Of a DNA stretch of 64,000 nucleotides, positions 33,689 through 36,238 are shown one piece after another. The DNA comes from Limnohabitans sp. Rim8 (GTDB lineage Bacteria; Pseudomonadota; Gammaproteobacteria; Burkholderiales; Burkholderiaceae_C): positions 62,001 through 126,000 of the forward strand of contig NZ_CAMDLM010000002.1 of NCBI RefSeq assembly GCF_945901735.1. The letters run 5' to 3'. A program made the position numbers and the translations under genes. Every line of letters starts with the position of its first letter. Position 1 is the stretch's first letter. The notes below the pieces were generated by a model. It was not told where the DNA came from, made no database searches, and was given only the letters and a program-made list of their open reading frames with translations.

Positions 33689-33832
33689 ATGACTGATGCA
33701 GCTAACCCAACAGGGCTGACAGACCAAGAAGCCCAAGAGTTCCACACGTACTTCACACAGGGTTACCTGTTGTGGGCCGCTGGAGCGTTCTTCGCCCACA
33801 GCTTGGTGTGGATCTGGCGTCCCTGGTTCTAA
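33689..33832 (+). CDS. pufB: Light-harvesting 1 beta polypeptide
   Basis: A 47-residue antenna protein of the LH1 ring. It has the acidic N-terminus LTDQEAQEFHTYF, a single membrane helix and the BChl-ligand His in FFAHSLVWIWRPWF, with the second conserved His 18 residues before it. Length is normal. Its stop codon lies in a hairpin (33824-33840). It is too short for most gene callers but unmistakable. Confidence 0.95.
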   Translation: MTDAANPTGLTDQEAQEFHTYFTQGYLLWAAGAFFAHSLVWIWRPWF

Positions 33833-33840: not shown

Positions 33841-33856
33841 TAACAAGGAGGTATGT

Positions 33857-34081
33857 ATGACGAACCCCAACGCTGTCAAAACAAACAATGACCCAATAGA
33901 CCATTACGAAGGTTATTGGATGATTTTTGTTTTGCTTTTCACGATGTTCACTGTGATCGCTTTAGTCGGCCAAATGTTCTTTATTAATTGGCGCATTTGG
34001 CTTCCTGGCGCGGAAAAATCCATGACCATGTATGAAGGCGTGAGTGCTTCCGTGCATACCGTCATTTCTCAAATAATCTGA
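33857..34081 (+). CDS. LH1-beta-like small membrane protein without His ligand, between pufB and pufA (orf74)
   Basis: A 74-residue protein with a strong AAGGAGG site 5 bases before its ATG. It has a polar N-terminus (about 20 residues, DPIDHYEGYW), one membrane helix (MIFVLLFTMFTVIALVGQMF) and a 30-residue C-terminal tail. Aligning its NWRIWLPG with the beta-type WRPW signature puts Gln at the exact position of the BChl-ligating His (six residues before the Trp), and Trp at the place of the second His. It is thus beta-like but lacks both His ligands. It is neither PufX nor PufQ by position or sequence that I can recognise. Possible roles: a ring-gap or RC-contact subunit, an assembly factor, or an antenna with a Gln-liganded pigment. 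The gene is AT-richer than its neighbours. Confidence 0.85.
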   Translation: MTNPNAVKTNNDPIDHYEGYWMIFVLLFTMFTVIALVGQMFFINWRIWLPGAEKSMTMYEGVSASVHTVISQII

Positions 34082-34096
34082 AAAAAGGAAATTATT

Positions 34097-34291
34097 ATGT
34101 GGCGCATTTGGCGAATGATAGATCCCCGAGTCGCGGTTGTCTGTGTAGGACTCCTGATCGCTTTTGTATCAACAACGATTCATCTGATTCAAATCAGTGG
34201 CGATCGTTACAGCATCAACAGCTGGCATCCCGATACGGCCAAGATGGCGGCGAAAGCTCAGCCTCAGAACGCGGCTTTGCCGCAAAAGTAA
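34097..34291 (+). CDS. pufA: Light-harvesting 1 alpha polypeptide
   Basis: A 64-residue antenna protein with the typical start MWRIWRMIDPRVAVV, one membrane helix and the BChl-ligand His29 in STTIHLIQISGDRYSINSW. The C-terminal tail (DTAKMAAKAQPQNAALPQK) is rather long and Ala/Gln-rich. An AAAAAAGGAAA site precedes the ATG, 15 bases after orf74. It is followed by a stable hairpin before pufL. Confidence 0.94.
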   Translation: MWRIWRMIDPRVAVVCVGLLIAFVSTTIHLIQISGDRYSINSWHPDTAKMAAKAQPQNAALPQK

Positions 34292-34414: not shown

Positions 34415-35242
34415 ATGTCCATGTTAAGTTTTGAACGCAAATACCGTGTGCGCGGCGGTACCCTTTTTGGGGGCGACCTGTTTGATTTCTGGGTCGGTCC
34501 TTTTTATGTTGGATTCTTTGGAATCACAACCTTGTTTTTTGTCCTTTCGGGCACCGCGTTGATTTTGTTTGGCGCGGCCATGGGGCCCACCTGGAACGTT
34601 TGGCAAATCAACATCGCACCACCAGACCTTTCCTATGGGTTGCGATTCGCACCCATGATGGAAGGGGGCTTGTGGCAACTCATCACGGTGTGTGCCCTGG
34701 GCTCATTTGTCTCTTGGGCGTTGCGCGAAGTTGAGATTTGCCGCAAATTGGGCATGGGCTTGCATGTGCCTGTGGCCTTTTCCATGGCCATCTTGGCGTA
34801 TTTCAGTTTGCAAGTGGTGCGTCCCGTGTTGATGGGGGCCTGGGGACATGCTTTCCCTTACGGCATTTACAGCCACTTGGATTGGGTCAGCAACACCGCG
34901 TACCAATACCTGCATTTTCACTACAACCCATGGCACATGATTGCCGTGACTTTTTTCTTTGCAACGGTGCTTGCGCTGTCCATGCACGGTGGCTTGGTGC
35001 TCTCAGCCACCAACCCTGGAAAAGGCCAGACCGTGAAGTCGCCAGAACATGAAGACACGTTCTTTCGAGACCTGATCGGCTACTCGGTGGGCACCCTCGG
35101 CATTCACCGTTTGGGCTTGTTTTTGGCGCTCGCAGGTGTTTGGTTTGGCATCGTCTGCATTGTGGTCAGCGGCCCATTTTGGACCGGAGCTTGGCCTGAG
35201 TGGTGGAGCTGGTGGCTGAACATGCCCATCTGGCGCACTTGA
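34415..35242 (+). CDS. pufL: Photosynthetic reaction centre L subunit
   Basis: A 275-residue, five-helix membrane protein that binds BChl, bacteriopheophytin and quinones. The start [29 protein letters not shown], the segment [34 protein letters not shown] with the special-pair and iron-ligand His residues, and the normal length identify it. A CGGAGGA site lies 8 bases before the ATG. Confidence 0.97.
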
Positions 35243-35263: not shown

Positions 35264-36238
35264 ATGGCTCAGTATCAGAATCTTTTCACCTCAGTGCAGC
35301 CGGTAGGGCCCTTGCACGATGGCGTTGAATTGCCCCGCGGAGACGCCAAGCGATTGGGCAAACCGTTTTTGGTGCACCTGTTAGGTCGCATTGGCAATGC
35401 TCAGATCGGCCCTGTCTATTTGGGAACGCTTGGACTGGCGTCCTTGATTTTCGGCATCGCCGCTTTCAACATCATTGGTTTCAACATGTTGGCCTCTGTG
35501 GACTGGAACCCTATTCAGTTCATCCGACAATTATTTTGGCTTGCATTAGAACCACCAGCGCCTGCTTACGGTCTGAGTTTTCCGCCCCTGCAACAAGGGG
35601 GTTGGTGGCTCATTACGGGCTTCATGTTGACCATTTCCATCCTGCTGTGGTGGGCGCGCACGTACCGTCGTGCCCGTCAACTGGGTCTGGGAACACATGT
35701 GGCTTGGGCTTATGCGGCAGCCATTTGGTTGTTTTTGGTGTGTGGTTTCTTCCGCCCTGTGATGATGGGCAGTTGGTCCGAGGCGGTGCCATTTGGCATC
35801 TTCCCTCACCTGGACTGGGTGTCTGCCTTGTCGCTGCGTCATGGCAATTTGTTTTATAACCCATTCCACGCGCTGTCGATCGTTTTCTTGTATGGATCGA
35901 CGCTGCTGTTTGCCATGCACGGCGCCACCATTTTGGCGGTGACGCGTTATGGTGGAGAACGCGAGATCGAACAAATTGTGGACCGCGGAACTGCTTCTGA
36001 GCGTGCCGGCTTGTTCTGGCGCTGGACCATGGGCTTCAATGCCACGATGGAGTCCATCCACCGCTGGGCCTGGTGGTTTGCCGTGCTGTGTCCTTTGGTC
36101 GGCGGCGTGGGTATCTTGTTGACTGGCCCCGTGGTGGACAACTGGTACCTGTGGTCCGTCAAACACCATGTTGTGCCCGCGTATCCCTTGGTCAGCCCAG
36201 TCGTCCTCGATCCTGCATTGATGGGAGTGAAGCCATGA
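35264..36238 (+). CDS. pufM: Photosynthetic reaction centre M subunit
   Basis: A 324-residue partner of PufL: start [13 protein letters not shown], five membrane helices, and [32 protein letters not shown] with the special-pair and Fe/quinone His residues. The C-terminus has the length found in species with a bound tetraheme cytochrome. Its stop overlaps the pufC start (ATGA, 36235-36238). Confidence 0.97.

Follow-up and report, generated by a model that had tools for sequence, protein, structure and literature searches.

The small gene orf74, which lies between pufB and pufA in the 64,000-nucleotide stretch of Limnohabitans DNA analysed here (the window), belongs to a family, ORF74, that profile comparison shows to be homologous to the tailed LH1 beta polypeptides. 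We infer its descent from a tailed beta by duplication. The gene itself was already known; new here are its beta ancestry, its distribution, its near-strict exchange with the C-terminal tail of beta and the decay of its bacteriochlorophyll (BChl) ligand site. We propose, at a probability that we would put at roughly 45%, that ORF74 may be a pigment-free, beta-like accessory of the reaction-centre (RC)-LH1 core, taking a beta-type place and limiting or sealing the ring.

The gene and its place in the puf operon

The puf operon of the window reads pufB, orf74, pufA, pufL and pufM, preceded by a gene that we take, by position and size, to be bchZ (Table 1). The observations of the initial annotation concerning orf74 itself were borne out: 74 codons and a stop, an AAGGAGG site, and gaps of 24 bases after pufB and 15 bases before pufA. 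When the bases of the pufB-pufA gap were shuffled 5000 times, an ATG frame of this length appeared in 3 of the shuffles, and relatives of similar length occupy the same position in other genomes. Counted over 115 relatives including the window's own gene, all seven ribosome-binding-site bases are kept in 11, six in 9, five in 20, four in 72 and three in 3. The protein matched no Pfam or NCBIfam model at E ≤ 10. The GC content of orf74 is 42%, against 51-56% in its neighbours.

Table 1. Features of the puf region of the window, followed by PufQ-like ORFs numbered within the named loci
Feature	Position	Strand	Basis or remark
pufB, tailless 47-aa LH1 beta with His	33689..33832	+	PF00556, NF040862 above cut-off
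AAGGAGG ribosome-binding site of orf74	33845..33851	+	five bases 5' of ATG
orf74, 74-aa single-helix LH1-beta-like protein	33857..34081	+	translation, PDB search, hhalign
Trp21 codon, site of beta's second (-18) His	33917..33919	+	variable in family
Gln39 codon, site of BChl-ligating His (0)	33971..33973	+	alignment of 113 distinct sequences
WRIW-LPGAE block of orf74 (W+6, R+7, W+9)	33989..34015	+	among most conserved parts
orf74 C-terminal tail, counterpart of tailed-beta C-terminal extension	34016..34078	+	predicted helix 52-73, low confidence
pufA, 64-aa LH1 alpha	34097..34291	+	position, sequence; PF00556 and NF040861 both below cut-off
pufL	34415..35242	+	PF00124
pufM	35264..36238	+	
PufQ-like ORF, L125	1012-1329		
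PufQ-like ORF, L126	1351-1731	reverse	
PufQ-like ORF, L138	916-1341	reverse	
PufQ-like ORF, L159	312-578		
PufQ-like ORF, L160	346-609		

The gene had been taken for an undescribed one, which it is not. It is very likely the same gene as ORF74 of Roseateles depolymerans (PMC10037100) and ORF2 of Rubrivivax gelatinosus (PMC12817894), with which it was matched by place, size and locus order: both occupy the same place in puf, and the name 'ORF74' fits the size. In the parts of these papers available to us, the former stands as a bare ORF name and the latter as one of two puf-operon ORFs of unknown function, located 5' of pufA, without the central His and set against PufA proteins. The Roseateles paper, as far as its accessible text goes, describes pufA, pufB and ORF74 as sharing one major transcript of 1 kb and as the top three loci, with the largest changes under carbon starvation; in a sigma-factor mutant ORF74 fell to 2.34%. 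The earlier suggestion that its position gives the gene expression near LH1 stoichiometry finds some support in this co-transcription. Within the accessible portions of the open-licence literature, we found no paper calling ORF74 a relative of beta.

Homology to tailed LH1 beta and decay of the ligand site

Searched against the PDB with phmmer, orf74 matched six beta chains, followed by noise from E 1.4; below E 0.01 the matches were beta chains exclusively, the best being 8z81_B (2.2e-6) and 7xxf_B (3.3e-6), the latter from the Rhodopila core (PMC9640540, consulted in part). All three top targets are C-terminally extended betas, and the alignment continues into the extension. The ORF74 profile reached a best E of 1.6e-11 in the same database. 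In hhalign comparisons of sequence sets drawn from the puf loci, ORF74 (67 sequences) matched tailed beta (24) at 99.5% and 111 bits over columns 2-74, which is the full length, compared with 97.6% and 56 bits for tailless beta (51) and 11% for the alpha control (78). In a PufQ-rooted tree (126 rows, 75 columns), with tailless betas gapped in the tail columns, ORF74 forms one clade (97/94) outside and adjoining all betas, and ORF74 plus beta separate (98/95) from the PufQ-like ORFs discussed below, which do not form one clade; we use only those ORF74/beta branches because the columns are few. Given the position of the clade and the better match to tailed than to tailless betas, we reject an origin by recent copying of the neighbouring pufB; the duplicated beta that the initial annotation had offered as one of two readings is not supported in that form.

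The broader claim of that annotation, a relation to LH1 beta with loss of His ligation, is upheld by the PDB search, the profiles and the residue tally alike. With Gln39 as zero, W+6, R+7 and W+9 of orf74 align with the beta register AHSLVWIWRPWF; as had been noted, Gln then takes the position of the BChl-ligating His, and Trp21 that of the His at -18. ORF74 and LH1 beta (PufB, PF00556; tailed forms in PDB 7xxf, 8z81 and 9m8m) thus agree in full-length match, single helix and WR.W register, and in ORF74 as in tailed betas the tail starts with LPG or IPG. Unlike LH1 beta, however, ORF74 has no BChl-ligating His save in 1 of 113 sequences, rarely has the -18 His, falls below the Pfam cut-off and coexists with a separate true beta. 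The curated antenna cut-offs were missed by the best of the few relatives scanned, at 13.5 against 23 bits (Pfam) and 18.6 against 61 (NCBIfam).

The residue tally covers 118 rows (L082 omitted, one genome present twice) with 113 distinct sequences, in which the ligand site is Q in 78, K in 12, T in 8, N, S, L and A in 3 each, and H, G and C in 1 each. Any residue may stand at the -18 site, where His occurs twice. The block downstream is far more constant (W+6 in 112/113, R+7 in 110/113, W+9 in 94/113; G51 constant, P50 99%, A52 and E53 96%), and in the tail V62 and S71 reach 99% and V66 97%. Because eight non-His residues other than Gln fill the ligand site in 34 of the 113 sequences, we reject Gln as a conserved BChl ligand and family trait, and the Gln-liganded pigment binder that had been offered as the family's function is, on this tally, unlikely. 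The sole tallied ORF74 with a ligand-site His (L040, 1501-1725, genome G180) possibly represents a BChl site that was kept or won back.

In three Limnohabitans-type clades, of 6, 9 and 10 loci, the median of the pairwise dN/dS values was 0.168, 0.181 and 0.093 for ORF74, 0.168, 0.144 and 0.022 for pufB, and 0.194, 0.181 and 0.012 for pufA. On these coding-sequence comparisons, purifying selection on ORF74 is real, and in the third clade it is weaker than on pufA and pufB. Homologues in related puf operons and median dN/dS of 0.09-0.18, not near 1, were the outcomes of two of the checks proposed earlier.

AlphaFold models of six ORF74 sequences place helices at residues 13-43, 45-48 and 52-73. 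Confidence is low except in the membrane helix, the ORF74 model is weak overall (mean pLDDT 67), and Foldseek gave no match to it in the PDB. The tail is amphipathic, with a mean moment of 0.36 against 0.19 when shuffled (0.24 for the window protein), and the ORF74 flanks are near neutral on average in charge-based topology.

Distribution and exchange with the beta tail

Within the genus, 53 of 90 genomes gave a match to orf74 at E ≤ 6.6e-8. All 53 are among the 61 genomes with reaction-centre genes, and none of the 29 genomes lacking these genes has orf74. Eight genomes have RC genes and no strong match; in seven the contig stops short of the spot (in one, G032, the C-terminus of ORF74 is still visible), and in the eighth, G088, the RC match begins at contig base 64. 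Seven Limnohabitans-type drafts (L192-L198) have a contig break within a few hundred bases 5' of pufL or pufM, perhaps reflecting strain variation at pufBA. The neighbourhood was read in 30 of the 53 genomes with a strong match, and all 30 carry ORF74. In L001-L015 and L016-L030, two clearly distinct pufB/pufA types occur in one genus, both with ORF74 between them, and therefore exchange of the puf operon is suggested.

At the level of the taxonomic family, 63 of 399 genomes (40 of 141 genera) matched, and among the 62 loci read, 54 in 33 genera have ORF74, seven have a tailed beta without it and one a tailless beta without it. The order, taken as Burkholderiales from the names of relatives, gave 51 matching genomes out of 399, of which 42 were read after removal of four already counted and five taken as noise; 35 have ORF74, adding 10 genera and 8 families, five have a tailed beta and two a tailless beta without ORF74. 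Matches in class and phylum numbered 5/369 and 17/398, and none of the 16 loci from outside the order carries ORF74 between pufB and pufA. In all, ORF74 was found in 118 of the 149 genomes whose puf locus was read, in 43 genera of one order and in 118 of 133 loci of that order: a conserved gene inside the puf operon with its function printed as unknown in the available parts of the sources above. A search for plasmid copies with the window protein gave no match.

Matches in long unrelated frames were excluded, in the genus (G002, G053, G063, G073, G089, best E 0.0197-0.0774, and likewise weak extra matches in other genomes), the taxonomic family (G105, 0.0037) and the order (G486, G596, G674, G691, G834, 2.8e-4 to 0.0091). 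The 149 loci were found via ORF74 queries that also catch betas, so that puf loci with a beta invisible to such queries, three PufQ-bearing ones for example, are missing from the tally.

Gene arrangement is steady throughout. ORF74 starts 17-99 bases 3' of pufB, and pufA follows 10-22 bases 3' of it in 112 of 118 loci by script pattern; in the remaining six, inspected by eye, five pufA begin MWRYWR and in L158 the contig stops 39 bases after ORF74. Length was counted in 116 with a fixed start (L082 and L088, of ambiguous start, excluded): 88 have 74 residues, 113 have 72-79, and three were called at 62 via an inner start codon.

The presence of ORF74 goes with the shape of beta. Defining betas as tailless with 1-3 residues after RPW and tailed with 22-28, and counting each genome once (L024 and L036 are one genome), the 149 loci divide into 118 with tailless beta plus ORF74, 27 with tailed beta without ORF74 and four with tailless beta without ORF74 (L096, L126, L159, L160), all four with a PufQ-like ORF upstream. 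In this order the two properties of a tailed beta appear divided: PufB retains the His for the pigment and stops at RPW or shortly beyond it, and ORF74 keeps the WR/LPGAE block and the tail, with the His lost. Two genera are mixed, g100 (G288 tailed, G480 with ORF74) and g170 (G511, G730 and G759 tailed; G556, G598, G636, G815 and G840 with ORF74), which implies an exchange, or a transfer of the operon, young enough to divide genera; the poorly resolved pufL tree does not demonstrate repeated exchange. At twelve loci of the order (L153-L157, L089-L095) a tailed beta is the only beta, and both ORF74 and the PufQ-like ORF are absent from the locus. Combining the tail exchange with the PufQ-like pattern, each of the sampled loci contains one or more tailed proteins of the beta-like superfamily, in a sample that, drawn with ORF74 queries, is biased towards that pattern.

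A possible core accessory or PufQ counterpart

Beta polypeptides have a cytoplasmic N-terminus and a periplasmic C-terminal side. In the scenario that we favour, ORF74 would be made together with PufB and PufA and would insert like beta, N-terminus cytoplasmic and tail periplasmic. It would then occupy a beta-type place beside an alpha, in the LH1 array or at its edge, without BChl ligation there. In this way ORF74 might limit or seal the LH1 ring, anchoring it by the amphipathic tail, thus acting like PufX, protein W or gamma while being none of these. The beta homology, the single clade, the tail exchange, the purifying selection, the near-constant W+6 and R+7, the co-transcription in Roseateles and the RC genes alongside argue for a core accessory. 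Against it stand the weak AlphaFold model, the lack of a Foldseek match and of a Pfam or NCBIfam antenna call, the resemblance to PufQ-like ORFs, the weaker constraint in the third clade, the pufL tree that does not show more than one exchange, and the tailed-beta genomes of the order that manage without ORF74 at the locus. A new LH1-RC component, as the initial annotation had it, is possible on this sequence-level evidence.

The resemblance just mentioned leads to a serious rival, which we rate somewhat less probable than the core accessory: ORF74 might be the betaproteobacterial counterpart of PufQ, a small membrane factor, made with LH1, that would steer the synthesis of BChl or the delivery of pigment together with the assembly of LH1. 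It would then act in assembly or in the pigment pathway and would not stay on as a subunit. According to the portion of PMC5725709 available, PufQ of Rba. sphaeroides is needed for a normal BChl level and binds ferrochelatase, and its deletion leaves 6% of BChl. ORF74 and PufQ (PF05398, a Pfam model of 74 positions), like the PufQ-like ORFs, agree in length, in having one helix, in a conserved C-terminus and in lying in the puf operon; ORF74 and PufQ also share the plan of a variable N-terminus with conserved helix and C-terminus (pattern of PufQ from the same partial source). A PufQ-like ORF lies upstream of pufB in 15 loci, namely 12 of the 16 outside the order (including L126) and L096, L159 and L160 inside it. 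It is absent from all ORF74 loci, seven of which have less than 350 bases upstream, and the four tailless loci without ORF74 all have it. Its profile, built with 9 of the 15 loci, shows remote similarity to ORF74 in hhalign (98.4%, 73.8 bits). A similar profile has ORF74 as its best hit in the window genome (E 0.0017), with pufB next (0.6), and in the tailed-beta genome G730 it hits the beta (1.7e-14). On the other side, Pfam PufQ had no match in four ORF74 proteins scanned and none over cut-off at puf loci in 33 genomes including the window's, which rules out PufQ proper, and hhalign against three true PufQ sequences gave 27.5%. Moreover, ORF74 lies between pufB and pufA, not directly upstream of pufB, is nearer to beta in profile score and tree, and both genes are missing from the locus in all 12 tailed-beta cases of the order. 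Profile and tree therefore favour the beta side, and the presence pattern is compatible with both a subunit and a PufQ-type factor.

The PufQ-like ORF itself looks like a divergent PufQ, with an hhalign score of 80% against the three PufQ sequences, although five scanned with Pfam gave no PufQ match; since it also matches tailed beta at 98.3%, PufQ may be a relative of LH beta. This invites a more encompassing reading, doubtful as it stands, in which a duplicated beta ancestor divided its functions between a tailless pigment-binding PufB and a pigment-free tailed ORF74, a constant part of betaproteobacterial RC-LH1, with the PufQ-like ORF in the same beta superfamily. If true, an antenna subunit, a core accessory and a pigment-pathway regulator would be of one origin. 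Should ORF74 instead be of PufQ type, it may provide control at the branch point; the accessible part of PMC5725709 asks about the lack of such control in PufQ-less bacteria.

We think it improbable that ORF74 serves as a structural helper in many copies, with one in each alpha-beta unit or, gamma-like, in gaps between betas, or that in some lineages it binds pigment by way of Gln or a different residue. The major pufB-ORF74-pufA transcript in Roseateles (PMC10037100, in part) and the prevalence of Gln (78/113, with His in 1/113) would suit it, but in other lineages residues such as K, L, A and G occupy the ligand site, the Rhodopila gamma-like polypeptide is only 22 residues long according to the consulted part of PMC9640540, and the PDB profile search had no gamma match. 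That the gene is a functionless decayed beta copy or chance ORF is hardly credible, the missing curated family and low GC content notwithstanding: as far as sequence can tell, the shuffles, the low dN/dS, the near-invariant block and the steady length and place in 43 genera rule it out.

Were ORF74 a core subunit, the cores of betaproteobacteria would include a component that our profile search did not find among solved PDB chains. The best PDB chain for a betaproteobacterial beta, 9m8m_B (7.4e-17), is visibly different in sequence, and for this reason we count no solved betaproteobacterial core as found there. PDB searches at E ≤ 10 returned only antenna betas and noise, no PufX, protein W, protein-U or gamma; these, with protein-Y, are likewise extra small membrane polypeptides of RC-LH1 cores, without a sequence match to ORF74. 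As far as the available parts of PMC7806223, PMC8564508 and PMC9640540 describe them, protein W has three helices and protein-U two, compared with one in ORF74, and the genes of protein-U and the Rhodopila gamma-like polypeptide lie outside puf, unlike ORF74.
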